A program made the translations under genes and the position numbers. This document shows positions 1 to 17,510 of a DNA stretch of 48,766 nt, in pieces. Numbering within the stretch: the stretch's first letter is position 1; every line of letters starts with the position of its first letter. The notes below the pieces were generated by a model that worked only from the letters and a program-made list of their open reading frames with translations, did no database searches and was not told where the DNA came from. The DNA comes from a virus: the IMG/VR virus record IMGVR_UViG_3300050821_001826, positions 1 to 48,766 of that record; one strand, written 5' to 3'.

Positions 1-248
1 GGTTGCAGACGCGCAGGGTAACGCTCTTGCTGGGGCGGAAGTGTATTGGTGTCTCCAGCCAGCCAGCACCTCCGTCAACCCACCTAGCCCCCTGGCGACT
101 GTCTATACCGATTCAACTGGCGACACACCTATCGTGCAGCCGGTTCTCACGGATGGATTCGGTCACGCCTTCGCTTACATGAATCCCGATGTGCTGTACA
201 CGGTAGTCATTTGGCACCCGCTTTTCGGATACAACCCTATCGTGCTTC
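1..248. repeat. Left copy of imperfect terminal repeat
   Basis: These 248 bases are repeated at 48519-48766 with seven substitutions and no gaps (positions 99, 112, 118, 163, 166, 175 and 196 of this copy). Six of the seven are synonymous in the reading frame that crosses the repeat; position 99 changes Thr (here) to Ile (right copy). The repeat shows that the sequence closes on itself into a circle of about 48.5 kb. The mismatches suggest that the two ends came from closely related variants of the virus rather than from one molecule. Confidence 0.9.
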
Positions 249-538
249 CCGATCAATCCATCGGCGGCGGCGGGGGTGGAGGGGCAGGTTTGACTCCGTT
301 CGCTGGGGTTCCGCAAGGGGCGATCAACGGAACAAATCAGACCTTCATCCTCACGAACGGCGGGACGCCGATCGCTGACGCGACTCCATCGCAGGTTACC
401 GCGTGGTTGAATATTCCATTGATTCAGGGGATCGGCTTTTCTGTGACCGGCAATGTTCTGACTTACGCCAGCCCGCCCCAACCTGCATCTGGCAGCGGAC
501 CCGCAGACGAAATCTATGCCCAAGGATTTTTCGTATGA
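2..538 (+). CDS. Tail-tip / receptor-module structural protein, 3' part
   Basis: The frame is open from the first base and has no start here; the start is at 48493, so the whole protein read round the circle is about 187 residues. The N-terminal half, with GNALAGAEVYWCLQP and a DGFGHAFAYMNPDVLYTV segment, looks like a carboxypeptidase-regulatory or Ig-like beta-sandwich. A glycine-rich linker (seven G in a row) follows. The C-terminal half carries a GAINGTNQTFIL...NVLTYASPP pattern that I recognise from many phage tail and baseplate proteins, where a short beta domain reads NG-x-N-x-x-F-x-L. There is no signal peptide. The stop overlaps the next ATG (ATGA), so it is translationally coupled to the signal-peptide cassette downstream. 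Probably a virion protein; its exact place in the tail is unknown. Confidence 0.75.
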   Translation, partial: VADAQGNALAGAEVYWCLQPASTSVNPPSPLATVYTDSTGDTPIVQPVLTDGFGHAFAYMNPDVLYTVVIWHPLFGYNPIVLPDQSIGGGGGGGAGLTPFAGVPQGAINGTNQTFILTNGGTPIADATPSQVTAWLNIPLIQGIGFSVTGNVLTYASPPQPASGSGPADEIYAQGFFV

Positions 539-2334
539 AAAAGATACTGATAACCGCGCTTTTCTTGTTTTCTCTGCCCGTGCTGGCGCAGAAGGTCAAC
601 CCTAACACGCAAATTGGCTGGCCCACCAACTGCTCCGTTGCCGGGTATGTCTACAGTTATCAGGCGAGGACCTGCGTCTTGAACGGTTCTTCCTCCGGCA
701 CGGTCACCTCTTTTTCTTCGGGAAATCTCTCGCCTTTGTTCACGAGTTTTGTAGCTACCGCTACCACGACACCTGCACTTTCATTCACCCTGAGCACGCA
801 GACCGCCTATACCGTTTTCGCAAATTGCACCAATGCAACTGCAGCCCCATCTTTTTGTTCGCTGATTGACGCGATGCTCCCTACGCAGGGTGGATTGACG
901 CCGGGTAGTTACACCAATGTCAACGCAACAGTGAACGCGCAAGGCATCATCACGGCAATATCTAACGGATCAGGTGGCAGCAGTGGAATTTCTGGGTTGA
1001 CAGCCGGGTATATCCCCAAAGCTGGATCATCGACCACCATCAACGCGAATAGCGCTCTGGATGACGGTGTGACAACTGCAAGCACGATCACATCGACGGA
1101 GCCGATTGCGATCACGGGCAGCACGCACGGGATTACGATTCCGGCGGGAACCGCGGTTTCGGGAGCTGCGAACAAAGTTGTCTACGCAGTCGATGCCACG
1201 AACGGTTACGCGGAGGTAAACGAAAACAATTCGGGTCTTTCGCGCATCTGTACGGCAGGCAATGCAATTTGTGGTAGTGGCAGCGGCAATATGAATGATG
1301 GCGGCGGTTCGACAACGGCAGGGTACTTCCCCATCACCAGCACCACCGCGCATGATTACACCGTGGACGCGAATCTTAATGATGGTCACACGGCAGCCAA
1401 CACCTTGACTTATGCCGGAACCGGCGGAATCAATGCCTCTGCCGGTCCTGTGGAGGGCACAGCGGGCATTTTTAATTCGCCTTCTGCTAATGCGTTGTCG
1501 ATCATCAACAGCGGAGCCAGTGTCGCGGTGTTCGACGAGAATAATACCTCGACCACACCAAAAACGAGCGTCTGCTATTTCCAGGCGATTCTATCAAGCA
1601 ACACGGAAGATTTGTCGTGTAATGGCGCGACGCTAAGCCCACTTGAAACAGTTGCCACGTTGACGACATTCGCTACTAATTCGGGCGGTGGTAATACCAT
1701 TAATGCCACGCAAATCAACGGCGGTTCTGTCCCAGCTTCTGCAAATGTTCTCGGCTCAAACAGCAGCAGCCAGCCCATTGCAGCGACAGCCGCGCAGATT
1801 GTTGCCCAGATCAGCACAACAGCGGTAACGAATGCAACGAACGCTGCGAATTTGGAGGGTGGCGCAACGTACGCCATCCCGTATCAGCTTGGGGTTGGCA
1901 GCACCTCCTTCTTCGCAGCAGTTGACAATGCTGTGGTTGTCACGAGCAGCAGTGGCCTACCATCTGAAAGCACGACGCTGCCGAGCGGATTGACGATTCC
2001 AAGCCCTACGGTGACGGGAACCCTGACCGGCGCAGCGGCAAATTTCAGTGGGAATGTCAGTGTCGCCGGACATCTCAATCAGAGTTCCGCCAATGAGTTT
2101 GCAGGCAGTTGTTCCATTGCAGCCAGCGCAACCTCATGCACCGCCACGATTGCAGGAGCTTTTACTGGAACGCCGCTTTGCTTCGCAAGCGCGCAGAGCA
2201 CAGGAGCTCTTAACAATGCAAATCTAATTGTGTGTTCACTTAGCGGAACGACTGTCACTGTGACCACATATTTGGCATTGAACAGCGATACGGCTCAGAC
2301 GGTGGGTTTCCTGCTCATCGGTAATCCCAATTAA
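535..2334 (+). CDS. Exported adhesin-like tail fibre protein A
   Basis: 599 residues. The ATG at 535 is chosen because it overlaps the upstream stop and begins a textbook Sec signal peptide (MKKILITALFLFSLPVLAQ): basic start, hydrophobic core, small-residue cleavage site. Longer forms of the frame lack this. The mature part is Ser/Thr/Gly/Asn-rich and low in charge, typical of beta-rich fibres. Residues about 55-98 carry a GTVTSFSSGNLSPLFTS block, a tail-fibre repeat seen in many phages, and the next gene has a close paralogue of it. The C-terminal 80 residues (AGSCSIAASATSC onwards) look like a compact beta domain with paired cysteines. A signal peptide is odd on a tail fibre, which normally assembles in the cytoplasm; either the protein is secreted before lysis or the segment serves another purpose. 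Function is inferred from composition only. Confidence 0.8.
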   Translation: MKKILITALFLFSLPVLAQKVNPNTQIGWPTNCSVAGYVYSYQARTCVLNGSSSGTVTSFSSGNLSPLFTSFVATATTTPALSFTLSTQTAYTVFANCTNATAAPSFCSLIDAMLPTQGGLTPGSYTNVNATVNAQGIITAISNGSGGSSGISGLTAGYIPKAGSSTTINANSALDDGVTTASTITSTEPIAITGSTHGITIPAGTAVSGAANKVVYAVDATNGYAEVNENNSGLSRICTAGNAICGSGSGNMNDGGGSTTAGYFPITSTTAHDYTVDANLNDGHTAANTLTYAGTGGINASAGPVEGTAGIFNSPSANALSIINSGASVAVFDENNTSTTPKTSVCYFQAILSSNTEDLSCNGATLSPLETVATLTTFATNSGGGNTINATQINGGSVPASANVLGSNSSSQPIAATAAQIVAQISTTAVTNATNAANLEGGATYAIPYQLGVGSTSFFAAVDNAVVVTSSSGLPSESTTLPSGLTIPSPTVTGTLTGAAANFSGNVSVAGHLNQSSANEFAGSCSIAASATSCTATIAGAFTGTPLCFASAQSTGALNNANLIVCSLSGTTVTVTTYLALNSDTAQTVGFLLIGNPN

Positions 2335-2343
2335 GGAGCAATC

Positions 2344-3945
2344 ATGCTAAGAAAACTCGCGCTCTCGCTGTTCATCATTTGCAGTGCGGTCACACACGCG
2401 CAAACGATGGCCGCAGTTTATTATTCTCCCAGCGCCGGAGTGTGGCAACCACTCACATCTGCTGCCGCATTCGGGCAAATTTCTACCGTACCGCCCCTGC
2501 AAATCCAGGCATATTGCCAAGCGAGTGCGGGGGCACAGTGGTCCCCCTGTAGTTTTAGCGGAGGAGGCGGCAGCGGCACGGTTACCTCGTTCTCAGCCGG
2601 GAATCTTTCGCCGCTATTCACTACCAGCGTTGCGACATCAACCACAACACCGGCTCTGACTTTTTCCCTGTCGAATGCAGCCCAGAATTCTGTGTTTGCT
2701 GGACCGGCATCAGGCGGAGCTGGAACGCCGAGTTACCAGACAGCACCGACCATCAGCGCAGCCAACATGACGAATTTTCCGACGTTCAACCAAAGCACAA
2801 CAGGAAGCGCTGCATCGCTGTCTGTATCCGGTCAGACTGGCCTCATAACCTTCACGGGAATAACCAGCACAAACCGCACACTGACCGTGCGCGATGCCGC
2901 AGACACAATCCTTGAACTTGGGGGCAGCTACACGCCAACCGGAACGTGGACATGGACAAGCTGCTCAAGTTGCGTGTGGCCCACTTTTAATCAGAACACC
3001 ACAGGCACGGCGGGGGGATTGTCCGGTTCTCCAGCCATCACCGTATCGAGTTGCACGGGATGCGGAGGATCTAGCGCCTGGAGCGCCATTACCTCTGGAG
3101 CCAACACGCAGACCGGGGCATTCTCAACAACAGCCCCGTGGACTTTCTCCGTCGCGGGCGCAGCCTCTACACCCGGTCTGAGCGTTACAGGAGCACCGTA
3201 CACTGGCGGATCGGCAACAACAAACTTCCCGCAATTCTATGTCAATGACGGAGCCGGGCCGACCACATTCTCAACTGCTGGGACTGAATTTGGACTCAAT
3301 TCTCCATCCGGATTTACAGGCAACATGGCGGATTTCCATGTAAACGGTGGCGGATCGATTTTCAAGGTGGATTACCAGGGCAACCTAGGACTCGGAGGAA
3401 CTACAGCAACATATTTTGACTTTGCTCAAGGGTCAAGCAGTGCCGCTGTTGGTTATTGTCCCACGGCGAACTCAATTTGCTTTCAAGCTCCCACATCAGT
3501 CACCTACCAGCTTCGCGTATTCGCAGGCTCTCCCGCTACTGGGTTTCCGCTCTACACCAACTCATCCGGCACGATGACGGAGACGATCACAGGCGTAAAC
3601 GGAACCCTCAATAGCGGTGTGGGTCTTCTGGGAACGCTGGCTGTGAATACTGTTCTCTCCTCAACCGTCGCTGCTTACGCTGGTCATTTCACGAATCTGC
3701 AAGTTGTTACCGCACTCGGTGGCACCTGCACCACGCTGCCACAGTTCAATGTGTTCGACGGGACTAGCAATGTGGGATCGACCGTGACGGCAAATGCTTC
3801 GACGCAGACCAAAGGCACAGGAAACAGCACTGCGCAGACCTTGACCTTCGCGGCGGGAGATGTGATCGGAATTTACATCTCGACAGCCGGTGGGACGTGC
3901 GTAGCGAATGACTTTATTGTTTCAGCGCAGTATTCAACTCCATAG
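2344..3945 (+). CDS. Exported adhesin-like tail fibre protein B
   Basis: 533 residues; the start is preceded by AAGGAG six bases upstream. It opens with a Sec signal peptide (MLRKLALSLFIICSAVTHAQ). Residues about 78-125 (GTVTSFSAGNLSPLFTTS, ending NSVFAGP) are a clear paralogue of residues 55-98 of the preceding protein, both at protein and at DNA level, so the two genes share a duplicated module. The FAGP-x-SGG-x-GTPSY motif is common in phage tail-fibre stalks. The middle contains repeated NFPTFNQ / WPTFNQN blocks, and the C-terminal 110 residues form a separate beta-rich domain with Cys pairs. Probably a second adhesin or fibre of the same exported cassette. The carbohydrate or receptor it binds cannot be read from the sequence. 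Confidence 0.8.
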   Translation: MLRKLALSLFIICSAVTHAQTMAAVYYSPSAGVWQPLTSAAAFGQISTVPPLQIQAYCQASAGAQWSPCSFSGGGGSGTVTSFSAGNLSPLFTTSVATSTTTPALTFSLSNAAQNSVFAGPASGGAGTPSYQTAPTISAANMTNFPTFNQSTTGSAASLSVSGQTGLITFTGITSTNRTLTVRDAADTILELGGSYTPTGTWTWTSCSSCVWPTFNQNTTGTAGGLSGSPAITVSSCTGCGGSSAWSAITSGANTQTGAFSTTAPWTFSVAGAASTPGLSVTGAPYTGGSATTNFPQFYVNDGAGPTTFSTAGTEFGLNSPSGFTGNMADFHVNGGGSIFKVDYQGNLGLGGTTATYFDFAQGSSSAAVGYCPTANSICFQAPTSVTYQLRVFAGSPATGFPLYTNSSGTMTETITGVNGTLNSGVGLLGTLAVNTVLSSTVAAYAGHFTNLQVVTALGGTCTTLPQFNVFDGTSNVGSTVTANASTQTKGTGNSTAQTLTFAAGDVIGIYISTAGGTCVANDFIVSAQYSTP

Positions 3946-3953
3946 GAGCCGTG

Positions 3954-4709
3954 ATGAAATTTCTTTTATCGCTGATTGTCTCTTCTGTTTTATTTATGCA
4001 GCCGGTGATGGCGCGCGCTCAGTTTGGGGGTAAAGCTGGGATGGGTGGAAAAGCTGGTACAGGAGGAGGGCCTACAGCGGCCGCGGCCCCTACCTTCGTC
4101 CAAGCGGCTTCTCCAGCCGAGAGCGCAGGCCAGACATCAATCACATTTACGTTCTCAACAGCGTTGACTGCTGGAAACAACGTTGTTTTGTGCCTTTTTC
4201 AATACTCTCAGACTCCAACGGTCAGCTTCAATCATGAAACGTGGACAGCCGACCCCGATAACGGAACTCCAGTTCAAAATATTCCGTTCGGTTCTAACTA
4301 TCTAAGTTGTTGGACATCGAGTGGAATAACAGGCGGTGAGTCCTCCATCGTCGCTTCTTGCACAGGCGGTGGTTGTATGGATTACCCAGCAGGGTGGTCC
4401 TTTGAAATCCACGGAGGGGTTTTAGATAAATCAGATTCTACTGCGACTGGAAGCGGAGTATCCCCAGCCTCCAATTCAATTACCCCTACGGCGAACAACT
4501 CACTAATAATTGGACTGTGTGTGGCCGCTACGACGGGAACTACCACCACCCCCGGTACTAATGTTGCGTGGACAATCCCTACAAACGGATCGAATACCAG
4601 TGGCGCGATGGAATACTTTTCACAGACCACCGCCGCGTCGGTAAATGCGCAATGTGGCATCAGTCCCACAAACACATGGATCGCGCACGTCTTGGACTAC
4701 CACCCATGA
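3954..4709 (+). CDS. Exported Gly-rich beta protein, function unknown
   Basis: 251 residues. AGGAG lies five bases before the ATG at 3954; an in-frame GTG at 3951 is too close to it. The start encodes a Sec signal peptide (MKFLLSLIVSSVLFMQPVMA, then RAQ). A glycine-rich linker follows (about residues 22-45, two GGKAG repeats). The rest is a single beta-rich domain with six or more cysteines, suited to an extracytoplasmic, disulfide-bonded protein. It resembles the generic secreted beta-sandwich proteins of environmental bacteria, but I recognise no family with confidence. Its stop overlaps the start of the next gene by ATGA, so it belongs to the same coupled cassette. Confidence 0.75.
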   Translation: MKFLLSLIVSSVLFMQPVMARAQFGGKAGMGGKAGTGGGPTAAAAPTFVQAASPAESAGQTSITFTFSTALTAGNNVVLCLFQYSQTPTVSFNHETWTADPDNGTPVQNIPFGSNYLSCWTSSGITGGESSIVASCTGGGCMDYPAGWSFEIHGGVLDKSDSTATGSGVSPASNSITPTANNSLIIGLCVAATTGTTTTPGTNVAWTIPTNGSNTSGAMEYFSQTTAASVNAQCGISPTNTWIAHVLDYHP

Positions 4710-7042
4710 GGAAGCTATTTTTCGCCATTGTCGCTTTGCTTTTTCCCGTTGCTGCCTACGCCACGACCGCACCCACATGCCTGTATCAGGACGTGCTTTC
4801 CGGTCCCGTGTCGGGCGGTGAGGGCGGCAACGGGATATATCTGAATATTTATGGCACAGGTTTCGGGGCCAGCCGCGGAAGTTCGACGGTCACGGTAAAC
4901 GGCGTGGCGCCGGCGCAATATCTTTACTGGGGTGCTGATCCAACGGGCGACCGCGACCAGATTGGGATTCAATTGTCTAGCTCTACAACCACGGGACCAA
5001 TCGTGGTCACAGTAGGTGGTCAGGCTTGCACGGGGCCAGGCGGAACGTCGAACACACTGACCTTTACTGTTGCAGGCGGCAATATATATTTCATCGGACC
5101 AGCGACGGATAACACCGCGTCTGTAAGCTGTACCTCATTGAAGTCGGGTGGGGGAAGTTATTCTTCACCGTGGGGTCTGACTAACCAGTGCGGAACCGAG
5201 GGGAGCTGTAGCGGCTATCCAGGCGCGTCCGGAAGTCGTACACCCTATACCTACTACAGTTGTCTCTCTAGCAATGACGCGCTGATCTTTCTCAATGGTG
5301 TTAACTATCCACAGTACGATGGTCGTGGTCTTCACGCTTCGCTGACTGTGGATGCAGGGAACGGCCAGACTCATAATATTTTGCAAGCGCGGCCCGGTGC
5401 GACGGTCACTCTCGGAAACAGTGCTAGTTCTGGTGCTCCCGAGTATGGGATTCTAGATGCGGCGAACGTAGACGCTCAATATTCTGGACTGACAGCTATC
5501 GGCGGGGAAGGCGGGGGCGGTGGTTCGTCTTTTCAAGGGACGGCATCATCGAGAGTTGTAGGGAACACGTTCGAGTGCCCTTACTGCTCGGGGCCAATCG
5601 GCGTGGTCGAGGCTGTACCAGAACTGGTCGGAAATTTCGTGACTCTGGCCGCGTCCTCAGTGAACCCGTCAAACAAAACCTTCCAGTGCATCTACGAAGA
5701 TTTCAATGGCTTTGAGGTTGGCTGGAATCGGATCTCCAGTGTGGGGTGCTACAACGGCTTCCAGGTCAACGAAAACTACTCGACCGGCTTCTACAATTTC
5801 TCCGTCCACGACAACGACATTGCCGACGTGAACGGCTGTGGCATCAATCTTTCAACCGTTGACCCCGGTTCTGGCTACGTGCAGGTATACAACAACATCA
5901 TTCATCATACCGGCATTCAGCAGTCGTCGGACGGCTCGACGGACGATCCTCATTGCGGTGTGTCGATGAAGGGATACGCGCAGCGCCCCCAAGCAACCGC
6001 GTACTCAAACTCTGGCACCGTGGCCACGATCACCACCGGCACGACTGATAATGCTTTCAGCAGCACGCAATCGGTAATCTTGGGTGGTTTCACAACAGCG
6101 ACGTGGTTTAACTGTCTCAATCCGACCCTGACCGCTTCAAGCAGCACGACGATTACTTTCGCCAATAGCCACTCAGCGACATCGGGTTCGGACAGTGGCT
6201 ACATCGGGCAAGCGACCTCGGCGTGCATCACTGGATACTCGGTCACGGGCACCTCCGGTCCGTGCACGCTATACACGGCAACTCTCGCGAATACCTTGAG
6301 CGCGGGCCAACCTGTGACTATCGAAGGAATGAGTGTCGGTACCTTTCTCAACGGGACCGCGACTATCTCATCGCGGACGAATAGCCAATTTGTCATCCCT
6401 TGTTCTGGGCATTCGGCGGTCGGATCGACGCCGGATTCTGCCTTGGCAATAGCTGGCGGAACCGCGCAAGTCTGGAACAATACTCTTTTCGACACCTCGG
6501 TGCTCATCAACACCGCGTCGGGCAGCGAAAATGCTTCGTGTGGTTTCCTGGTGCTCGATAACCAGCTTGAAGTGGTCAACAATCTAGTCGGCAATATCAC
6601 TTACGTCCCGGCCTACACCTACGCTAGCGTCTATAACCCCTACATTTGCACAGGGGGCGGTCCTTCGGGGACGATCACCGGCTCGAATAACATCTGGTAC
6701 TCGGTCAACACGCCGGGAAGTACGTCACCGGCCGGAAGCATCGGTACAATCGAGAACCCGGATTTTGTGAACTCGACCACCTGCTCACCGGGCTGCACCT
6801 GGACGAATTACCAGATTCAATCTGGCTCTCCTGCCATCGGCGAGAGCATCCAGTTTCCAGGGCCATATACGACTTACGGGAACGCGGCGCTCAGCTATTT
6901 GACGTGGGACTTTCAGCAGTTGACGCGGCCAGCGAATCCTGCGGCTATTGCGACGGGTGCGTTGGAATACTCGTCTGGGGGCGGGGGAAGCACGAACGCT
7001 ATCTACGATGGAATTTCGGGAATGGGAATAATAATCCAATGA
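4706..7042 (+). CDS. Exported TIG/IPT plus right-handed beta-helix protein, possible depolymerase
   Basis: 778 residues, starting at the ATG that overlaps the previous stop. A Sec signal peptide (MRKLFFAIVALLFPVAAYA) is followed at about residues 28-120 by a TIG/IPT Ig-like domain (IYGTGFGASRGSSTVTVNG). Residues about 190-430 have the Asn-rich, regularly spaced rungs of a parallel beta-helix (WNRISSVGCYNGFQV, NFSVHDNDI, YVQVYNNIIHHTG). An Ig-like insert at about 430-590 (AGQPVTIEGMS) is related to modules in the tail proteins. Helix rungs then resume (VWNNTLFD, VVNNLVGNI, SNNIWYS). Beta-helices of this type occur in pectate lyases, rhamnogalacturonases and phage tailspike depolymerases. No catalytic triad is certain. 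The neighbouring arabinofuranosidase suggests polysaccharide binding or cleavage outside the cell (inference). Confidence 0.8.
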   Translation: MRKLFFAIVALLFPVAAYATTAPTCLYQDVLSGPVSGGEGGNGIYLNIYGTGFGASRGSSTVTVNGVAPAQYLYWGADPTGDRDQIGIQLSSSTTTGPIVVTVGGQACTGPGGTSNTLTFTVAGGNIYFIGPATDNTASVSCTSLKSGGGSYSSPWGLTNQCGTEGSCSGYPGASGSRTPYTYYSCLSSNDALIFLNGVNYPQYDGRGLHASLTVDAGNGQTHNILQARPGATVTLGNSASSGAPEYGILDAANVDAQYSGLTAIGGEGGGGGSSFQGTASSRVVGNTFECPYCSGPIGVVEAVPELVGNFVTLAASSVNPSNKTFQCIYEDFNGFEVGWNRISSVGCYNGFQVNENYSTGFYNFSVHDNDIADVNGCGINLSTVDPGSGYVQVYNNIIHHTGIQQSSDGSTDDPHCGVSMKGYAQRPQATAYSNSGTVATITTGTTDNAFSSTQSVILGGFTTATWFNCLNPTLTASSSTTITFANSHSATSGSDSGYIGQATSACITGYSVTGTSGPCTLYTATLANTLSAGQPVTIEGMSVGTFLNGTATISSRTNSQFVIPCSGHSAVGSTPDSALAIAGGTAQVWNNTLFDTSVLINTASGSENASCGFLVLDNQLEVVNNLVGNITYVPAYTYASVYNPYICTGGGPSGTITGSNNIWYSVNTPGSTSPAGSIGTIENPDFVNSTTCSPGCTWTNYQIQSGSPAIGESIQFPGPYTTYGNAALSYLTWDFQQLTRPANPAAIATGALEYSSGGGGSTNAIYDGISGMGIIIQ

Positions 7043-8004
7043 AGAAACTGATCATTTTCGCTCTTGCCACTGCCTTGCACGCTCAGTCCACGGCCACGGT
7101 GACCTGTCCTGCCGCCTGTACGGTCACGGTGACAGCGACAACTGTCGTAACGCCGCCGGTTCCGCCAGCCACCTACGTCGGCCCATGCGACATTCCCGGA
7201 GTTTCCTGCGTTGCGGCTTACAACCTGGCACGTAAAGCTCGCAATGCGTACGCGGGCAGTTTCTTCACGGAGACGAATAATACCTTCGCAAAATTCTATG
7301 ACCAGATCAGTGTTAATGATCTAACCCCGTCTTGCTGCGGCCCCAACTGGCCGTCTGGAGCAGTACAGACAACGGTGGGATCGACTATTCCTCCGAGCGG
7401 GGTACCCGTGCCGATCGCACGAATCCTAAACGGCGAAGCCTACACCTATCACTACGGCGCAGCCAGCGGCATCCCGGTAGGTAATTCGTCGATCACAGAG
7501 TACATGGTGGTTGAGAACACCTCAGAAGGCGGCCAGGTTTCCGGGTGCTGCGGGAGTTTCAACGACTCCGAGAATCCTATTCACGAAGGATCCAAAGGGC
7601 AGATGTTCGGGCTGTCGCTGGCGGCGGGCGGGATGTGCACGGTCGGAACCGGGACTGGACCCTGGGCGGGGGTTGACCTGGAGCAAGGGAACTGCCTCTA
7701 TGGGCCGCCCCCGACAGCGAAATACCTCACGATTTTGGCGAAGTACAATGCGGCAACCGGAACGCTGACACTGAAATCCGGGGATGCCACGCAAGGAATA
7801 CTGACGACTCTTTACAGCGGGCCTCTGCCTCCTGGATACGCGGGGTTGAACCTTCAAGGGGCTGTCTCTCTAGGGATGGGCGGCGATGGGTCCAATTCGC
7901 CAATCAACTTCATTGAGGGGGCTATTATCGCAGGGGCTACCACGGATGCGGCCGATAACGCGTTGCAGCAGAATATCGTCAACTTTTACGGGATACAGCA
8001 GTAG
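7039..8004 (+). CDS. abfB-like: Exported GH54-type alpha-L-arabinofuranosidase (catalytic domain)
   Basis: 321 residues, starting at the ATG that overlaps the previous stop. A signal peptide (MKKLIIFALATALHAQ) and a Val/Thr/Pro-rich linker lead to GPCD...CVAAYNLAR, which matches the N-terminus of fungal GH54 arabinofuranosidase B. From memory of the Aspergillus kawachii enzyme, three landmarks are kept: the vicinal Cys176-Cys177 pair (here C170-C171), the nucleophile Glu221 in VDMEN (here E215 in VDLEQ) and the acid/base Asp297 in GGDNSN (here D283 in GGDGSN). The C170 to E215 spacing of 45 residues is identical. The C-terminal pattern (YEG...ENSVQENIV against IEG...DNALQQNIV) also agrees. 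The arabinose-binding CBM42 is absent. The family removes terminal arabinofuranosyl residues from arabinan and arabinoxylan. The protein is predicted to be secreted. Confidence 0.88.
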   Translation: MKKLIIFALATALHAQSTATVTCPAACTVTVTATTVVTPPVPPATYVGPCDIPGVSCVAAYNLARKARNAYAGSFFTETNNTFAKFYDQISVNDLTPSCCGPNWPSGAVQTTVGSTIPPSGVPVPIARILNGEAYTYHYGAASGIPVGNSSITEYMVVENTSEGGQVSGCCGSFNDSENPIHEGSKGQMFGLSLAAGGMCTVGTGTGPWAGVDLEQGNCLYGPPPTAKYLTILAKYNAATGTLTLKSGDATQGILTTLYSGPLPPGYAGLNLQGAVSLGMGGDGSNSPINFIEGAIIAGATTDAADNALQQNIVNFYGIQQ

Positions 8005-9529: not shown

Positions 9530-10248
9530 CCCTCCCTCTCACTCCCTCCCGATTCAAGCGCGGCGCACTACCCTCCCCCCGTCATCGTCTCGCCGCAGCC
9601 TGCCCGCATGTCGCAACCACTCCCACGCCCCCACAATGGCTATGGAAGCCCACGCAGTTGTCGTTCTGGGGCAACGCCGTGGATGGCGACTGTGTGACGG
9701 CAGAGGAAGCGTTCGCCAAGGGATGCGGACCAGCAGGCGTGTTCATCACCGATGCGACTGTCCAAGCGTGGGCCACGAAGAATAACGTGCTGAATGGTGC
9801 AGACCTGACGCAAGTTCTCGACCTGATGCAATCAGGCGGCTTCCCTCAAGGCGCATCCGTCTACGATGATGGCCCGTTCGTCTCTGTGGACTGGACGAAC
9901 GCAGCCCTGCTTCAGAACGCCATCGCGCAGGGACCAGTCAAGATCGGCATTGCGGCGGACCAGCTTGAAAATGCGGTTCCTGATCCTCCGGCCGATGGCT
10001 GGTTTGCGACGGGATTCGCGCAGGACAGCAACGAGGACCACTGCGTTTCGCTCTGCGGGTACGGTTCGATTGCATGGCTGGCCGCTCAATTGGGCGGTAC
10101 TTTCTCTGGGCCAGAAGATACTCCCGCTTATGCCCTATTCACTTGGGACTCCATCGGTATCATCGACGTGCCATCCCTTGTGGCTATCTGTTCCGAGGCG
10201 TGGCTCAGGAAACCGACAACTGTTATCGCAGCACAAGGAGCGTTATGA
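9526..10248 (+). CDS. Papain-like cysteine hydrolase, role unknown
   Basis: 240 residues. After a basic, Pro-rich N-terminus, residues 48-60 (FWGNAVDGDCVTAE) place a probable nucleophile Cys56 in the position of the papain-fold Q/N-x-x-x-x-G-x-C helix. DHCVSLCGYG puts His172 at the start of a strand, and YALFTWD (W207, D208) resembles the Asn/Asp-Trp element that completes papain-like triads. The order Cys-His-Asp and the spacing fit a C1/C39-like fold. The gene is coupled to its neighbours by ATGA at the start and lies within the lysis block. It might process a virion or host protein or cut peptide crosslinks; no substrate can be inferred. There is no signal peptide. Confidence 0.6.
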   Translation: MTLPLTPSRFKRGALPSPRHRLAAACPHVATTPTPPQWLWKPTQLSFWGNAVDGDCVTAEEAFAKGCGPAGVFITDATVQAWATKNNVLNGADLTQVLDLMQSGGFPQGASVYDDGPFVSVDWTNAALLQNAIAQGPVKIGIAADQLENAVPDPPADGWFATGFAQDSNEDHCVSLCGYGSIAWLAAQLGGTFSGPEDTPAYALFTWDSIGIIDVPSLVAICSEAWLRKPTTVIAAQGAL

Positions 10249-10751
10249 ATCGCAGATCGTTTCTGAAACTGTCATCGACTAGTGCCGCGATTGCGGTCCT
10301 TCCCCCAAGTCTTCTGTTCACCGGCTGCTCTGTCGCCCAAGTCGTTCTTGACGTAGAAGGCGTGCTCAAGGAAGCAGCAGCAATCACCCAAAACGCCGGA
10401 CAGACTGCATGGTCTGCTGAGCTAACCCAGGCCGCAGACGCTCTCCAAGCCGCCTATAGCGTCTGGGACCAGAGCACGACTTCGACGACCGGCCAAAAGA
10501 TTGCGGCCCTGCTCAATGCCCTCGTAGCGGCCACGGCGATCATCCTGCCGAACGACCCGTGGTCGGCGTTGATTAACGAGATGGTCGCGCTGGCTGACCT
10601 GGCTCTGAGCTTCTGGCCCGGTTCGACGTCGGTAACCTACAGCCGGAACCCTCACGTCGGTGCCGTGCTACCTCCAGTAAGCTACAAAGACGCGAAACGG
10701 CGCTGGAACACATTGGCGGTAGGACCGCTGGCGGGAGCTAAAATTAAATAG
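10245..10751 (+). CDS. Predicted Tat-exported lipoprotein
   Basis: 168 residues; AAGGAG precedes the ATG at 10245. The N-terminus reads NRRSFLK, a near-perfect twin-arginine motif, followed by a moderately hydrophobic stretch and FTGC at residues 25-28, an acceptable lipobox. Tat export followed by lipid attachment at Cys28 is therefore predicted. The mature part is Ala-rich and helical (about residues 40-130), with a final basic tail (KDAKRRWN). Phage lipoproteins are often superinfection-exclusion factors or outer-membrane spanins; Tat-dependent ones are rare in my experience. It has no Pro-rich spanin signature, and its function is unknown. It sits between the papain-like gene and the jelly-roll protein. 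Confidence 0.75.
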   Translation: MNRRSFLKLSSTSAAIAVLPPSLLFTGCSVAQVVLDVEGVLKEAAAITQNAGQTAWSAELTQAADALQAAYSVWDQSTTSTTGQKIAALLNALVAATAIILPNDPWSALINEMVALADLALSFWPGSTSVTYSRNPHVGAVLPPVSYKDAKRRWNTLAVGPLAGAKIK

Positions 10752-10761
10752 GAGTCTCCCT

Positions 10762-11436
10762 ATGCTTTTCTCAGCATCCTACGCTAATCTCGAAACCATC
10801 GTCCCCGGCATTGACATGAACCCGGCAGACATCAACCCCGGCGGTCCAGAGCCTACCTCTGCCACGGGGTTCACAGACGAGCCATGGAGCGGCGGCACAA
10901 CGGTAAGCATCAACGGGCCGCAATGGTTCGCAGGGCTATCCAAGCGCTCCGTGACGCCTCCGACGGGTCTCCTGCAATCCATCAGCCAGATTACCGTGAC
11001 CTATGACATCCGCCCCTCGCAGACAGCTTCCCTGTTCGCGCAGCTTCACGAAACGGATCTGATAATCGTAGACGCCAACGGGAATCGCTATAACGGCTCC
11101 TGCCAGAAGAATAACGAAGAGGGCGGCATGTGGCAGATCGTGAACGCCCAGGGGAATTGGGTGGACACGGGATTCAAGCCGGGATTGTTCACTCCAGACG
11201 TGTGGACGCCCGTCTCTGTGGTTTATCGGGTGAACTGGCAAGCGCTCACGTTGTCGGTCATCGGGATTACAGACGGGACCACGCCATTCCTGATTCCAGC
11301 AGCCCTGCAGAACGTTCCCGCTGTAAAGAATAGCGGCTGGCAGCCAAACCTTCTCGACATCCAGATTCAAGACACGCTGATTAAAGCCGGGAGCTACACG
11401 AGGGACATGAAGAATATCGGGATTTCTTTGCAATGA
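10762..11436 (+). CDS. Jelly-roll (concanavalin-like) carbohydrate-binding-type protein
   Basis: 224 residues; GGAG precedes the ATG. The second half alternates strands rich in Trp, Tyr and Asn (WTPVSVVYRVNWQ, LLDIQIQD, SYTRDMKNIGISL). This pattern is shared with polysaccharide-lyase and laminarinase-like jelly rolls, where a W-x-P-V-x-V-x-Y-x-V strand precedes the concave sheet. No catalytic residues can be assigned and there is no signal peptide. It may be a lectin-like virion or lysis-stage protein. The stop overlaps the endolysin start (ATGA). Confidence 0.6.
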   Translation: MLFSASYANLETIVPGIDMNPADINPGGPEPTSATGFTDEPWSGGTTVSINGPQWFAGLSKRSVTPPTGLLQSISQITVTYDIRPSQTASLFAQLHETDLIIVDANGNRYNGSCQKNNEEGGMWQIVNAQGNWVDTGFKPGLFTPDVWTPVSVVYRVNWQALTLSVIGITDGTTPFLIPAALQNVPAVKNSGWQPNLLDIQIQDTLIKAGSYTRDMKNIGISLQ

Positions 11437-11894
11437 CCCCTGCACCCGCGATCTCTGCTTTTTTGTCTCTCATCGGCTGGTCAGAGGGAGCCGATTACAA
11501 CACCATCGTGACTGGCATAGATGGCCCTACTACCTTCTCTGACTTCACAGACCATCCCTTTGCCCCGCAGTTCTCGAGACCGCCTGTAATCGTGCGCAGA
11601 AGCCCATTGCTCGAATCGACCGCCGCCGGCCGCTACCAACTCCTGTACCGCTATTGGGTGCCCTACAAGGCCCAGCTAGGGCTTACAGACTATTCCCCTG
11701 CTTCGCAAGACGCCGTGGCGCTCCAGCAGATGAAGGAGCGCGGCGCTGTGGCAATGATTACCGTGGGGGATATTCAGGGGGCGATCGCGGCTTGCTCGAA
11801 CATCTGGGCGTCGTTTCCGGGAAATAGTTACGAGCAGGGCGGAAAGTCTATGGGGGAGTTGCTAGATCAGTACGCTCTCTTCACGCAGCCCTAG
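11433..11894 (+). CDS. R-like: Endolysin, lambda-R-type lytic transglycosylase
   Basis: 153 residues, close to lambda R (158). The catalytic region FLSLIGWSEG aligns with AFLDMIAWSEG of lambda R and gives Glu18 as the general acid. Further matches are FTDHP, STAAGRYQLL (lambda STGAGRYQLL), SPASQDAVALQQMKERGA and CSNIWASFPG. The family cleaves the peptidoglycan MurNAc-GlcNAc bond, forming 1,6-anhydromuramic acid, at the end of infection. There is no signal peptide or SAR segment, so a holin is needed for release, and several small membrane proteins upstream could serve. The stop codon lies in the CTAG shared with the opposing gene. Confidence 0.95.
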   Translation: MTPAPAISAFLSLIGWSEGADYNTIVTGIDGPTTFSDFTDHPFAPQFSRPPVIVRRSPLLESTAAGRYQLLYRYWVPYKAQLGLTDYSPASQDAVALQQMKERGAVAMITVGDIQGAIAACSNIWASFPGNSYEQGGKSMGELLDQYALFTQP

Positions 11895-12100
11895 CCGATA
11901 CGGGGTGGGGCCGGTTTGAAAGGCCAAGCCATGATCTTGAACAAATATTGTGGCGGATCATCAGAAAATATCGCGCGTCCCGTCACAATGAAACGAACGC
12001 AGTTGCATCCAACGGTGAAGACGATGCAAGGCATGTATACGCACATTCTGATCGGTAGCGAAAGCACCCAAGCTAGCAAGAATATAATTCTCGTGCTCAC
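11891..12100 (-). CDS. Small membrane protein, last gene of the early operon
   Basis: 69 residues with a GTG start overlapping the preceding stop (GTGA) and AAGGAG seven bases upstream. Residues 4-35 are strongly hydrophobic (RIIFLLAWVLSLPIRMC), with several cysteines. The rest is basic and aromatic. No family is recognised. The plus-strand frame over the same bases (11916-12128) lacks a ribosome site. It ends in the same CTAG as the endolysin. Confidence 0.58.
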   Translation of the reverse strand: MSTRIIFLLAWVLSLPIRMCVYMPCIVFTVGCNCVRFIVTGRAIFSDDPPQYLFKIMAWPFKPAPPRIG

Positions 12101-12411
12101 CGCGATTCTCCTTCTCTGGGTGGGTTGATGGGGCGGAAGTAGGTCCAGTTGAGGCTTTTATATTGCTCTGCGGTGGCGTCACCTTTCCACGGTGTGTCGG
12201 CTACGTCACACACGAGCCAGGTACGAGACATGAGCCGCCACCTGCCAACCTCGTCGCGCCCTAGCTTAGGCAAGTTCTCCGGCGTGATCGGAGTCCAGTC
12301 CAGCAGGGCGAGCCGGGCTTCCAACTCAGCGATGCGTGATTTAGCCTCATCGCGTTCGTGAGTGAGATTATCTACGGTGTCGAGAATTAATCTTCTAACT
12401 TCCGGTTCCAC
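12097..12411 (-). CDS. DUF551-like hypothetical protein with N-terminal coiled coil
   Basis: 104 residues with a GTG start seven bases after AAGGAGG. Residues about 8-38 form a coiled coil (LTHERDEAKSRIAELEARLALL). Then comes W-T-P-I-x-P-E-N-LP with spaced Trp residues (RTWLVCDV, LNWTYFRPI), which resembles the DUF551-type domain common in phage early regions. Function unknown. Confidence 0.75.
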   Translation of the reverse strand: MEPEVRRLILDTVDNLTHERDEAKSRIAELEARLALLDWTPITPENLPKLGRDEVGRWRLMSRTWLVCDVADTPWKGDATAEQYKSLNWTYFRPINPPREGESR

Positions 12412-12449
12412 TGCTTGCCTCCTTCACACTCCGGGCCGCCAAGAGCGCG

Positions 12450-12614
12450 TCACGCTATTTCGTCTGCGGCTGCCCAAGGACAGCCAAATGAATCTTTAGC
12501 GGCCCTGGTCGCATCCATCAGCAACACTCGGCCCTCGATGCAGAGGTTGAAGATTGCGTTCCGGCAGCGTTCGCACTGTTCTAGGTGCTGGTCGAATTTA
12601 TCTTGTGGATTCAT
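12450..12614 (-). CDS. Small CxxC protein
   Basis: 54 residues. GAGGAA lies about eight bases before the ATG, which directly follows the stop of the upstream gene. HLEQCERC gives one Cys pair, with further Cys in FNLC and FGCPW, a possible small zinc-binding protein. Such H-x-x-x-C-x-x-C proteins are frequent in phage early operons. Confidence 0.7.
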   Translation of the reverse strand: MNPQDKFDQHLEQCERCRNAIFNLCIEGRVLLMDATRAAKDSFGCPWAAADEIA

Positions 12615-13211
12615 TCATTTCCTCGATTCGTCTGGATTAGCGTCTACGGCGGTTACGGGAATGGGGAGAAGTTCGGCAAGGGCTTGCATAATTTCCAGCG
12701 CACGCACCCGTAGGCAATGAACGCAAGTAGTGATGCCGCGCCTTATCCCAAAATCGATGTCCACGTTACCTGCCGACCACTTACTCAGACCGCAGAGAGT
12801 CTGTTTTCCGCGCACCAGGTGGGATGGCTCAAGGTCAGCAATATACTCCCCGCAATGGACACAGCAATGAGTGGCGCATCTTTCCCGCGCCTGTGCAGGC
12901 TCAGAGGCGGGAGCGGCAGTGTGATGCGAGCAAGCGCACTTGGCTCCGCAGAACTTGCACTGCTGGCGGCACCTGTCGTGCTGGCCGTGGAAACAGGCTG
13001 TGGAGGTATAAGCGTGCTCCGTCTCCGCGTCCGGCTGGGAACGATCGGCACGAGTTTCAATCAGCGCCGCCACATACCGGTTCTGGCAGTCGTTGTGTTC
13101 GGCCAGTTGCGCGGCCACTTCCCATACGGCCTCGGCAATGATGCATGGAGCCATTTCGGTATTGTTGCCTCTACACTCTTCCGCATAAGCTCGAATCTGT
13201 TTTGCGTTCAT
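12615..13211 (-). CDS. Multi-cysteine zinc-binding-type hypothetical protein
   Basis: 198 residues from the ATG at 13211, which has AAGGGAG upstream; the frame extends 47 codons further without a ribosome site. Residues 1-45 are helical (MNAKQIRAYAEECRGNN). The middle holds a dense Cys/His cluster (CFHGQHDRCRQQCKFCGAKC, CSHH, CCVHCG), and a later CVHC pair follows, so two or three zinc sites are likely. No enzyme motif is visible; it may bind nucleic acid. Confidence 0.72.
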   Translation of the reverse strand: MNAKQIRAYAEECRGNNTEMAPCIIAEAVWEVAAQLAEHNDCQNRYVAALIETRADRSQPDAETEHAYTSTACFHGQHDRCRQQCKFCGAKCACSHHTAAPASEPAQARERCATHCCVHCGEYIADLEPSHLVRGKQTLCGLSKWSAGNVDIDFGIRRGITTCVHCLRVRALEIMQALAELLPIPVTAVDANPDESRK

Positions 13212-13254
13212 AACTCCCTTTCCCTCTGTCTCAGATTGGTGATGAGCGGGATGG

Positions 13255-13449
13255 CTACAATCCAAGTTCTTTAACGACAGGCAATTTACGGCGCTTGGCT
13301 TCCGCAACGAGACGTTTGCCCATCTCTCGCACCACATCCTCGAATCCGCCATCCATCAGCGCTTTACAGAAACGACCAAACGAGTCGCTACCGTCTTTTG
13401 GATCGAACTGAATTGTGAGCGTTAACTTGCCCTTTTTCGATTTCTTCAT
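13255..13449 (-). CDS. Small basic protein, unknown
   Basis: 64 residues; AGGAGGAGAG precedes the ATG. The start is lysine-rich (MKKSKKGKLTLTIQF) and a beta strand leads into an amphipathic helix (FEDVVREMGKRLVAEAKRRK). A small DNA-binding or single-domain regulator is possible, but no family is recognised. Confidence 0.68.
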   Translation of the reverse strand: MKKSKKGKLTLTIQFDPKDGSDSFGRFCKALMDGGFEDVVREMGKRLVAEAKRRKLPVVKELGL

Positions 13450-13488
13450 CTTCCTCTCCTCCTCGTTTCAGGGTGCGGTGGGGGTCAG

Positions 13489-13851
13489 TTACTTTTTCAA
13501 TTCCAGCATCCTGATCCGCGCTATCAATTCCTGCCACTCGCGCTCAGTAACCACATGCAGGTCATCCACGCATTCATTCCGCTCGGGGACATACAAACAC
13601 TGATCCGTGCAAACCGTGGTGCCCGGCGAACAGGTATTGGCACAGTGCGCTGGCGTGATTTGCTGATGCTGATACTTCCCACATTGAAGGGTGCGTTCTT
13701 TACAACTCGGACGTGCCTCTTGGAATGACGACGCGTCATCACAGAATGGCAGGCATTTATCGCCTATCCACGCTTTACTGGGGCAATCCTTTTGGCCCCA
13801 CCCTGCCACACAACCCAGCGCCAAGGTCACTATTGCTGCGATTCTCTTCAT
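13489..13851 (-). CDS. Small secreted cysteine-rich protein
   Basis: 120 residues from the ATG at 13851, which overlaps the upstream stop (ATGA). The signal peptide (MKRIAAIVTLALGCVAGWG) is followed by a mature chain of about 100 residues with ten cysteines, including CANTCSPGTTVCTDQC, a knot-like disulfide-rich arrangement. The last 25 residues form a helix (EREWQELIARIRMLELKK). It could be a lipoprotein if Cys14 is lipidated, but the lipobox is poor. Export from an early operon is unusual; it may act in the periplasm, for example on superinfection (inference). Confidence 0.72.
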   Translation of the reverse strand: MKRIAAIVTLALGCVAGWGQKDCPSKAWIGDKCLPFCDDASSFQEARPSCKERTLQCGKYQHQQITPAHCANTCSPGTTVCTDQCLYVPERNECVDDLHVVTEREWQELIARIRMLELKK

Positions 13852-14120
13852 TGCTGCTCCTTGGGTTTCGATATTCTGTCCCAGATAAATTTCCAATTCA
13901 CGCTGCAATATCCCCCGCCAGCGTCATTGATGTATTCGGCCCATTGATGATTGGCATCGCTGCCTGAAATGGTGGTCCAAGTGACATTGTTCTTAAACCC
14001 CTTGGGGCACTTGGCGCAGACCCTAAAGCCGTCGCTAGAAATGTGCGGATGAGGCCATACCCATCCAGCCGATAAGCTTAGTACCGCGATAAACCACGTT
14101 GTCGCTGCGAATTTCTTCAT
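13848..14120 (-). CDS. Small secreted protein with four cysteines
   Basis: 90 residues; GGAGGAGTGAA precedes the ATG. The N-terminus is a signal peptide (MKKFAATTWFIAVLSLSAGW). The mature part has CAKCPKG, several Trp and a YCSVNW segment. It is coupled to the next secreted gene by ATGA, so the two form an exported pair inside the early operon. No family recognised. Confidence 0.72.
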   Translation of the reverse strand: MKKFAATTWFIAVLSLSAGWVWPHPHISSDGFRVCAKCPKGFKNNVTWTTISGSDANHQWAEYINDAGGGYCSVNWKFIWDRISKPKEQQ

Positions 14121-14147
14121 TTCACTCCTCCGCTCCAGGGGAGCAGG

Positions 14148-14612
14148 TCAAAGCTCGATTGGAATACGCAGCCACAATTCGATCTGATCCCACCGGTCCG
14201 TGATGTAGCTAGCCATTTTCAACATCAAATCTGGCTCCCGGATCGCAGGACACCACGCTGCTGTCAGTTTCCCAGCACCTGCTGCCCATCCGAGTTCGGC
14301 GTGGGCACTCTGACCGCAGGGGTTGACCAGAATGCAAGCGTCGCAACGTTTCAGAGCGTCCATGTCCCGATTGAAGCCTTCGACTGCGCGTGGATGCTCC
14401 AAACCTCGCAGGTAGCGGGGAACATCACCAGTCCAGAGCCGCCAGTCTGGATCAACTTCGGACCAGTGGAACCCTCCGTTTTCTCCATCTATCTCACCCC
14501 ATCCGCTTCCCGATCCCCGGAAATCGTAAACCTCATGGCCAAGTGCGCGGAGATTTTCGACCGCGATAGGCTGCCACTCACAGCGCCAGCTACTTGCAAC
14601 GTAAATCTTCAT
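14148..14612 (-). CDS. Nucleoside 2-deoxyribosyltransferase-like protein
   Basis: 154 residues. The N-terminal MKIYVASSWR strand and the C-terminal HAELGWAAGAGK motif, with the Glu that serves as nucleophile in this superfamily, fit the nucleoside 2-deoxyribosyltransferase / DUF4406-like Rossmann fold. Between them lie GHEVYDFRG and an acidic DMDALKRCDACILV strand. Family members transfer deoxyribose between bases or hydrolyse nucleotides, so a role in nucleotide recycling or base modification is plausible. Fold-level assignment is good; the reaction is uncertain. Confidence 0.75.
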   Translation of the reverse strand: MKIYVASSWRCEWQPIAVENLRALGHEVYDFRGSGSGWGEIDGENGGFHWSEVDPDWRLWTGDVPRYLRGLEHPRAVEGFNRDMDALKRCDACILVNPCGQSAHAELGWAAGAGKLTAAWCPAIREPDLMLKMASYITDRWDQIELWLRIPIEL

Positions 14613-14651
14613 TCAATCCCCTTCCTTTCTTCGCTCCGCCACATGAGACGG

Positions 14652-15035
14652 TCAGGTTCCTACTTCTCCGCGCTGACAGGCATCAACGCCTTGGTGCGTG
14701 GCCAGTAATGCCGCCACGTCCTCTACTGACCGGCAAATTCCGTACCGATGCCCTTCGCGTTCCACCTGGGCCTGAAAACTCTTCTGGTACTCAGATTGCC
14801 TACCCTTCGCGGCCTTTGTCTCAATCCAGTAGGCTTGGCTGAATGAGCACCAAGTCCCCTGATCATCCACGCCGCGTGTCCGAAACGCCAAAATGTCGGC
14901 CATGCCCTTGACGCCGAACCGCATGAAGCCGCCGGGAACTCTAGCGCCTCCTGTGGGCATCCGGAACGCCAAAATGTGCTCTGCCGCCAGCCAGTCCATG
15001 ATCTGTCGCAGTACCAGTCCTTCGGGTGTGCTCAT
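14652..15035 (-). CDS. VRR-NUC domain nuclease
   Basis: 127 residues, overlapping the previous stop by ATGA. GMADILAF supplies the metal-binding Asp, and YWIETKAAKGRQSEYQ supplies the E-x-K and Gln of the PD-(D/E)xK core. GICRSVEDV matches the end of VRR-NUC domains. Standalone VRR-NUC proteins are common phage nucleases that resolve branched DNA. Its place in the replication and recombination operon fits junction processing. Confidence 0.88.
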   Translation of the reverse strand: MSTPEGLVLRQIMDWLAAEHILAFRMPTGGARVPGGFMRFGVKGMADILAFRTRGVDDQGTWCSFSQAYWIETKAAKGRQSEYQKSFQAQVEREGHRYGICRSVEDVAALLATHQGVDACQRGEVGT

Positions 15036-15319
15036 CCCAACCGCCCTTCCGAAAGCGCCATCATGCGCTCAATCCGCTCGTCCCGCACGACAGCCTTGCG
15101 CAACCGCCGCGCTTCGGCCATGCTGATCTTCGGGTCGCGTTCCCTGGCGGCTTTGAGCAAGTCCTGTCTCCGCTCGTTTTCCCGATCCGCCTTAGCTCGC
15201 AGGCATTCTTTGCAGAGAATGTGGCCGTAAACCAAATGATTTAAGCCACAATCCACGCACCAACTCCCCGCGATTAGCCGCTTGCGTCGCTTGCGTGTTG
15301 CTTCCGTGCTTGGGTTCAT
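15032..15319 (-). CDS. Small zinc-finger protein
   Basis: 95 residues from the ATG at 15319 (overlapping the upstream stop), with AGGTGAGG upstream. CVDCG and CKEC about 15 residues apart form a zinc ribbon, flanked by very basic segments (RKRRKR; RRLRKAVVRDERIERMM). Likely a nucleic-acid-binding early protein; exact function unknown. Confidence 0.72.
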   Translation of the reverse strand: MNPSTEATRKRRKRLIAGSWCVDCGLNHLVYGHILCKECLRAKADRENERRQDLLKAARERDPKISMAEARRLRKAVVRDERIERMMALSEGRLG

Positions 15320-15630
15320 CGCCTCACCTGCTGCGCGGGGTTCGGGCATGTATCTTTATCGCGGTGAAACCACAACGGTTCGCCGATGTAAACCTTGGGA
15401 CCGCCGAACTGATCGGCTGTGGGATCGAGCACCCGCCCGTCAGAGAGCCTAAGAAACACGTGATTGGAACGCTGGAGCATGACTTCTTCGATTTCGGTGT
15501 GAACTCCCATCATGCCGAGCCAACCGGCGAGCGGATAGCAAACCATGGCGCACATCATGTCACCCTCGCGCTTTCCAATCAGGCCAGTGCGGAACCCCTT
15601 CGCGCATTGTTTAATCTTGGCGTCCGTCAT
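15316..15630 (-). CDS. Cys-His-Asp hydrolase-like small protein
   Basis: 104 residues; AAGGACGGGG precedes the ATG. Cys31 (VCYPLAGWL), His57 (SNHVFLRL) and Asp69 (RVLDPTADQFG) occur in the order and spacing of a transglutaminase/papain-like triad, and the sequence after DPTADQF also looks conserved. Such a small single domain is known from phage and bacterial hypothetical families. Enzymatic activity is inferred only from the three residues. Confidence 0.6.
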   Translation of the reverse strand: MTDAKIKQCAKGFRTGLIGKREGDMMCAMVCYPLAGWLGMMGVHTEIEEVMLQRSNHVFLRLSDGRVLDPTADQFGGPKVYIGEPLWFHRDKDTCPNPAQQVRR

Positions 15631-15660
15631 CCCCGTCCTTCTCTCTGCTCCGCGAGCCGG

Positions 15661-15897
15661 TCACTTGCGCCTTAGTGCTGAAACCACCACCGGCTCGTAA
15701 TAGTCAGCGCACATAACCACATCGGCGTAGTTGTATGGAATGTAAGTCTGCCTATCCCATTCGCGCACCATATCTTGAAGCGCTTTCTTCTCCGTGCGTC
15801 GTTTTGGCCCTGTCCAGTTCATGCGCTGATATTTTGGCCATTTCGCCCGCGCCATGAAGAACCGGCCTGTTCCGCGACAAACGTGAATCTCACCCAC
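15661..15897 (-). CDS. Hypothetical basic protein
   Basis: 78 residues from a GTG at 15897 just after GGGGAGGA; an alternative ATG at 15855 would give 64 residues. The core is basic and aromatic (KWPKYQRMNWTGPKRRTEKK), and the C-terminus reads YADVVMCADYYEPVVVSALRRK. No motif recognised. It directly follows the stop of the upstream gene. Confidence 0.62.
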   Translation of the reverse strand: MGEIHVCRGTGRFFMARAKWPKYQRMNWTGPKRRTEKKALQDMVREWDRQTYIPYNYADVVMCADYYEPVVVSALRRK

Positions 15898-15908
15898 ACT
15901 TCCTCCCC

Positions 15909-16346: not shown

Positions 16347-16403
16347 AACTACCTCCAATACTTCCCCTTGATCTTCCGCAGCCACGAGAGCTGCGACAGT
16401 TCT

Positions 16404-17472: not shown

Positions 17473-17482
17473 ACGGTACACC

Positions 17483-17506
17483 CTTTGTCAAAGACAGTCA
17501 AGGACA
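17483..17506. promoter_or_regulatory. Iteron-like repeats and palindrome upstream of the initiator
   Basis: On the plus strand GTCAAAGACA (17487-17496) is followed by GTCAAGGACA (17497-17506), the same 10-base unit as in the intragenic iterons but in the opposite orientation. CTTTGTCAAAG (17483-17493) is a perfect 11-base palindrome next to the initiator's ribosome site. It may let the initiator repress its own gene or form part of the origin. Confidence 0.55.
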
Positions 17507-17510
17507 ATAT

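Follow-up and report, generated by a model that had tools for sequence, protein, structure and literature searches.

Tailed phages are taken to assemble in the cytoplasm, and no textbook route of assembly predicts that their receptor-binding parts leave it before the particle is complete. The virus record IMGVR_UViG_3300050821_001826 (IMG/VR, positions 1 to 48,766; "the window" below is this whole stretch of 48,766 nucleotides) raises the question of why a soil phage would equip a row of fibre-like proteins with export signals. The row consists of five consecutive genes, P1 to P5 (535-8004), each of which begins with a signal peptide (is "tagged"); a small untagged gene directly upstream, the adaptor, is considered together with them. 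A sequence-only reading of this DNA had taken the five products for a phage-encoded secretome. The evidence set out here indicates that they are almost certainly exported, that in relatives such signal peptides stand directly ahead of virion-attachment domains, and that the exported proteins may be fibres and spikes that join the virion outside the cytoplasm. The components of the cassette are the following.

48493-48766, plus strand: 5' part of the adaptor gene, without signal peptide; 187 amino acids (aa) in all, continuing at 1-538 across the circular join
1-538, plus strand: 3' part of the adaptor gene, with a domain homologous to the one after the signal peptide in the fibre of the related loci L015 and L024
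535-588, plus strand: P1 signal peptide, MKKILITALFLFSLPVLA
535-2334, plus strand: P1, 599 aa, fibre-like, 12 mature cysteines; segment 182-246 is common to the L015 fibre
2344-2400, plus strand: P2 signal peptide, MLRKLALSLFIICSAVTHA
2344-3945, plus strand: P2, 533 aa, fibre-like, 10 mature cysteines; GTVTSF..NLSPLF repeat common with P1
3954-4019, plus strand: P3 signal peptide, MKFLLSLIVSSVLFMQPVMARA
3954-4709, plus strand: P3, 251 aa, 6 mature cysteines; GGKAG repeat, then a probable beta-rich domain
4706-4762, plus strand: P4 signal peptide, MRKLFFAIVALLFPVAAYA
4706-7042, plus strand: P4, 778 aa, 20 mature cysteines; read by eye as an Ig/TIG-like start and a beta-helix-like body, no family match
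7039-7083, plus strand: P5 signal peptide, MKKLIIFALATALHA; the scorer described below prefers a cut 4 residues later
7039-8004, plus strand: P5, 321 aa, GH54 alpha-L-arabinofuranosidase B catalytic domain, 10 mature cysteines including the vicinal pair Cys170-Cys171

The starts, stops and signal-like N-termini first described at 535-8004 are all present, and the five N-termini are canonical Sec/signal peptidase I signal peptides with a basic n-region, a hydrophobic core and an A-x-A-type cleavage site. They are assigned to this type because a twin-arginine motif and a lipobox are both absent from them. The predicted cut leaves Q as the first mature residue of P1, P2, P3 and P5, and T as that of P4. 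Three of the five starts (535, 4706 and 7039) overlap the preceding stop as ATGA, again as described, and Shine-Dalgarno-like sequences precede 2344 (AAGGAG) and 3954 (AGGAG). Signal peptides were called by a rule-based scorer with a threshold of 2.5, on which classical E. coli signal peptides reach 3.8-6.8, a membrane-protein start 2.4 and cytoplasmic starts less than 0. The cassette N-termini score 5.0-7.0; the adaptor upstream and the genes immediately downstream fall below the threshold. Outside such cassettes only 3 of the 201 genes that are 150 aa or longer pass, so that five passing genes in a row are expected at about 7e-10 per position, and a chance origin was rejected on this background. 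All five genes recur at 100% identity on the near-identical contig IMGVR_UViG_3300021402_000022.

Cysteine content, which was not used in selecting the proteins counted, provides a second line of evidence. Even cysteine numbers are favoured in exported bacterial proteins through disulfide pairing (Dutton et al., 2008, as cited in PMC7678975). Among 67 non-redundant signal-bearing proteins from 27 sources, 64 have an even number of cysteines in the mature chain (p = 7e-16), whereas the untagged genes of these contigs give 49 of 104. Cysteine density is 1.72% in the signal-bearing set versus 0.73% in the untagged one. The count is even in all five window proteins (12, 10, 6, 20 and 10), in all eight from the cultured Tunturi phages and, when the subset sampled through anchor genes is taken alone, in 30 of 32. 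The cassettes thus show the even and enriched cysteines of proteins that fold oxidatively after export, and not the picture of a classical fibre or spike module, with no export signal and with assembly in the cytoplasm. Evenness of this kind is a mark of disulfide folding outside the cytoplasm and supports export independently of signal prediction; on the strength of both, export is close to certain.

The cassettes also differ from the secretome of a host-type chromosome. Tagged proteins of a sampled Acidobacteriota chromosome are even in 13 of 21 cases and contain 0.47% cysteine, and the cassettes are therefore unusually disulfide-rich. The commonest residue after the cut is Q in both sets (16 of 46 on the chromosome, 34 of 67 in the cassettes), which fits an acidobacterial host without proving it. 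These data bear on the idea that the N-termini are merely signal-like and the proteins cytoplasmic, with a hydrophobic stretch that has a function in assembly or is left over from host genes once captured. Such a reading draws on the signal peptides being known as predictions, but it is very improbable: a reducing cytoplasm offers no reason for the parity of 64 in 67, the first mature residue shows the preference seen in Acidobacteriota, and signal peptides are kept despite sequence divergence, as in L005:10559-11329, a diverged relative of P3 with a different signal peptide.

The relatives bear on whether exported proteins can also be fibres. The proposal that the set is exported, and is hence a secretome and not fibres, is not supported, for the relatives' signal peptides precede fibre and tailspike attachment domains and the cassette lies at the usual fibre position; of the sequence-only reading as a whole, the data bear out the export but not this exclusion. 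In L014 the mature N-terminus of a 1314-aa protein aligns with the BcepC6B tail fibre gp18, beginning at about residue 2 of the latter, and also with the start of Pelagibacter phage tail fibres; by its pattern this domain is of the T7 gp17 type. In a 905-aa protein of L006 the mature N-terminus is 42% identical over 133 aa to the PBR31 tail spike, in an alignment that begins at residue 3 of the spike, and the match of this N-terminus to the solved tailspike head-binding domain 7eeq is weak (E 0.07) and not significant alone. The PBR31 spike and gp18 both lack a signal peptide, and the tag has therefore simply been added ahead of the virion-attachment domain in these relatives. More broadly, the signal-bearing proteins match the PHROG tail fiber, tail spike, collagen-like minor tail and hyaluronidase families.

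In L015 a single chain of 1766 aa combines a signal peptide, a domain like the window's adaptor (BLASTP 38.7% over 111 aa, E 1e-12) and a segment like P1 (54%, E 9e-14). The same parts are encoded in the window by two adjacent genes with an ATGA overlap and, because L015 carries both segments in one chain, the adaptor and P1 are probably partners. The attachment domain stands behind the signal peptide in L006, L014 and L015; in the window it would be on the separate untagged adaptor. This gene (48493-538), directly upstream of P1 with its overlap at 535 and lacking a signal peptide, is a correction to the account of the locus given earlier. It is contiguous in a near-identical contig (L004:7632-8195), and its joined translation was made in the window. 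The adaptor also matches the tailspike N-terminus of Xanthomonas phage PBR31 weakly (E 7e-6, with composition correction off). In another relative an untagged adaptor gene (L021:15193-16203) lies between two signal-bearing genes and not ahead of the run.

The remaining cassette proteins are less readily placed. The C-terminal domain of P2 occurs in signal-bearing proteins of L005, L006, L007 and L010. A tblastn search with P1 against 50,697 phage records gave zero matches, and Pfam and PHROGs searches of P1-P4 returned nothing useful. AlphaFold models of the adaptor and P4 (predicted local distance difference test scores of 49 and 33) are too poor for fold searches, and the Ig/TIG-like and beta-helix-like architecture of P4 is a reading by eye only.

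The position of the cassette is that expected of a fibre or spike module, in the late operon between tail or structural genes and lysis genes: in the window and its relatives it directly follows the structural genes and the adaptor, and in BcepC6B, PBR31 and epsilon15 the fibre or spike gene lies between tail and lysis genes. The window's own lysis genes were not identified by family search. Judging from gene size and position, the window shows no further candidate for receptor binding once the tagged cassette is set aside.

P5 is the member for which a function outside the virion is easiest to imagine. The arabinofuranosidase-like character ascribed to it is borne out: P5 matches Pfam PF09206 (E 2e-31, 109.6 bits with a cut-off of 25), and in an alignment to AkAbfB (1wd3) E215 and D283 coincide with the known nucleophile and acid/base, and Cys170-Cys171 with the vicinal disulfide, the numbering having been checked by counting on the chain. 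P5 differs from AkAbfB in being phage-encoded, in lacking the arabinose-binding domain and in lying within a fibre cassette. GH54 relatives with signal peptides are present on Acidobacteriota chromosomes, and P5 could be a free secreted enzyme.

Extended to the whole cassette, this leads to the main rival explanation, a secretome of exported adhesins and glycosidases that serves the periplasm, cell surface or matrix during infection and stays apart from the virion; its fibre-like domains would have been taken over to bind carbohydrates. The intact active site of P5 and its signal-bearing chromosomal relatives suit this explanation, as do the shared preference for Q after the cut and the GDSL lipase, chitobiase C-terminal or carbohydrate-binding domains of some other signal-bearing proteins. 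It is nevertheless rather unlikely, as it does not account for virion-attachment domains directly behind signal peptides or for cassettes at the tail-fibre position, it leaves the window without an untagged receptor-binding candidate, and the cysteine density of 1.72% is far from the 0.47% of the sampled host secretome. The further suggestion that the proteins feed the infected host found no support.

Instead, the favoured mechanism, to which we give about an even chance, places exported and disulfide-folded fibres and spikes on virions outside the cytoplasm. The cassette would encode fibre- or spike-type appendage proteins with cleavable Sec signal peptides. Once exported to the periplasm, the proteins would be cut by signal peptidase I and would fold there, forming disulfide bonds. 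In the cytoplasm, meanwhile, heads and tails would be assembled that bear the small untagged adaptor (48493-538). Export would precede lysis, so that the fibres would wait in the periplasm; as the inner membrane fails, virions would pass through the periplasm on their way out and pick up fibres and spikes, most likely P1-P4. Particles would thus be completed outside the cytoplasm, probably at lysis, with P5 either riding on the fibre assembly or acting as a free exopolysaccharide-degrading enzyme. We infer the docking on the virion, its timing and the role of the adaptor. Late attachment is feasible because P22 tailspikes and T4 tail fibres attach in vitro to otherwise finished particles.

Several points weigh against this mechanism. 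Family and sequence searches recognised a virion-attachment domain in none of P1-P5, the adaptor is untagged in phages of the window's lineage, and it is the fused relative only that suggests its docking to a fibre. Large trimeric fibres would be forced to cross Sec unfolded, and the time that virions spend in one compartment with exported fibres would be short. P5, moreover, resembles ordinary secreted bacterial GH54 enzymes. Virion proteomics for these phages was not found in the open-access literature, and the terms "signal peptide" and "mass spectrometry" are both absent from the paper on the Tunturi phages (PMC11924767).

Fibre-type domains exported before lysis would also reach the receptor, and the exported fibres might be displayed in the periplasm or on the surface to mask it, either for superinfection exclusion or to keep progeny off debris. 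The proteins PblA and PblB of streptococcal phage SM1, which end on the bacterial surface, offer a precedent. Receptor masking is improbable here, since one protein would suffice and the cassettes carry up to six different ones, enzymes included, and the sequences show no sign of outer-membrane anchoring.

Known systems share parts of this arrangement. Podovirus tailspikes and T7-type fibres (the PBR31 spike, BcepC6B gp18, the epsilon15 tailspike) likewise follow the tail genes and precede the lysis genes, and consist of an N-terminal attachment domain, homologous to those of L006 and L014, and a receptor-binding or beta-helix body. In contrast to the cassettes, which are tagged as whole sets, cysteine-rich and evenly paired, they have no signal peptide and are taken to assemble in the cytoplasm. 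Further precedents are BcepC6B gp19 (L063:5917-6990) and PBR31 orf035 (L062:6142-6951), signal-bearing "tail fiber" or "structural" genes beside the main fibre and before the holin, with even cysteine counts (4 and 2). However, each is a single gene and not a run, and the records carry no comment on the tag. The N-terminal part of the gp19 type matches only BcepC6B and PBR31 among the 50,697 phage records; the C-terminal domain of gp19 is also found at the end of the tail fibre of the Phimunavirus PP90, which is untagged. The filamentous phage coat proteins pIII and pVIII are virion proteins with Sec signal peptides, but they belong to a different virus group, remain in the inner membrane and enter the particle as it is extruded, with no lysis. 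Signal-peptide endolysins, such as Lys44 of Oenococcus phage fOg44, and signal-arrest-release endolysins show that a tailed phage can bring a protein of its own to the outside of the membrane ahead of lysis through the host Sec system (PMC6116005); these are lysis enzymes, one per phage, and neither fibres nor adhesins. Runs of exported fibre genes were not found described in open-access papers, in agreement with the initial statement that no system of this form was known. In their parts the cassettes resemble tail fibres that take a new route, and late attachment, if shown, would be a new assembly route.

The cassette is not confined to the window. Relatives found through P1 and P2 (L005-L015) have the same layout. 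Selection on tagged genes was avoided by sampling through two untagged anchors, the structural gene listed below together with its L015 relative, and the "LQWNP..NQE" protein of contractile-tail-type contigs; as both had first come to notice in cassette-bearing loci, the sample is not entirely free of bias.

44074-44628, plus strand: structural gene without tag, anchor for sampling relatives

About 22 of some 25 distinct anchor-sampled loci with a fibre-sized downstream gene have at least one signal-bearing fibre gene, L036, L043 and L055 having none, and in most relatives the tail-fibre position holds 1-6 signal-bearing genes. The domain "TPNIGLQIPAY..NW" stands behind a signal peptide in L013, L034, L039, L044, L053 and others, and is untagged in L032 and L036. 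The sampled set spans G+C contents of 37-61% and at least two tail types (podovirus- and myovirus-type contexts). Contigs L028, L029, L034, L039 and L044, with the same pattern at 37-41% G+C, may come from hosts outside the acidobacterial groups. In bacterial genomes the anchor protein was found on one contig of a Bryobacterales metagenome-assembled genome, in an untagged version, and in none of 395 further genomes of the phylum.

Cultured phages show the pattern as well, at least three of them from Acidobacteriota (Tunturi_1, Tunturi_2 and Tunturi_5). Tunturi_5, an Acidobacteriota phage reached by a tblastn match, has six consecutive signal-bearing genes annotated as tail fiber, virion structural or hypothetical protein. 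Tunturi_1 has five, one of them called tail spike, with one small untagged gene among them (10371-23028), and Tunturi_2 is 99.7% identical to it over the one tagged gene tested. Tunturi_3 and Tunturi_4 have no signal-bearing genes in their fibre regions. Tunturi_1 and Tunturi_3 share a host strain (PMC11924767) and only the former is tagged, so the host does not force tagging, and a host-imposed export of all fibres is ruled out. The two phages (L064, with tagged fibres, and L066, with untagged, cysteine-poor ones) form a natural matched pair. The window proteome gave three weak matches to the Tunturi regions, the best being an HNH endonuclease, and the window phage is therefore not a close relative.

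We tentatively put forward, at slightly less than an even chance, that many soil phages, cultured Acidobacteriota phages among them, use such two-compartment assembly, in which Sec-secreted, periplasm-oxidised fibres and spikes are joined during lysis, and that the route is used by some phages of a host strain and not by others. If so, receptor-binding proteins that are exported, oxidised and attached late would change the view of fibre folding and assembly and explain how phages of soil bacteria use disulfide-rich adhesins, and a signal peptide with even cysteines would serve as a sequence mark for receptor-binding proteins among unannotated soil-virus genes. If the proteins are purely secreted, they amount to a sizeable phage-encoded secretome acting on soil polysaccharide. 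The cultured Tunturi phages make the choice between virion fibre and secretome directly testable.

The first and last 248 bases of the window (1-248 and 48519-48766) are 97% identical, with 7 mismatches, so that it most likely represents a genome of about 48.5 kb that is circular or has terminal repeats; the mismatches may mean that the ends stem from two strain variants, joined at the closure of a circular genome. Its terminase resembles that of short-tailed phages.

24229-25824, plus strand: terminase large subunit, epsilon15-like, PHROG 2, about 45% identical to cultured short-tailed phages

A gene inserted in the structural module (43183-43698) is about 32% identical to the annotated HNH endonuclease of Tunturi_1 (L064:26102-26566) and probably encodes a homing endonuclease. 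Signal-like N-termini also occur away from the cassette. Two neighbouring small genes of the non-structural region (13489-14120, minus strand; 120 and 90 aa) have them, that at 13489-13851 being clearly above the threshold of the scorer. The 168-aa product of 10245-10751, with the twin-arginine (Tat), lipobox-like N-terminus MNRRSFLKLSSTSAAIAVLPPSLLFTGCSVA, clearly passes as well and is a possible Tat-exported phage lipoprotein.

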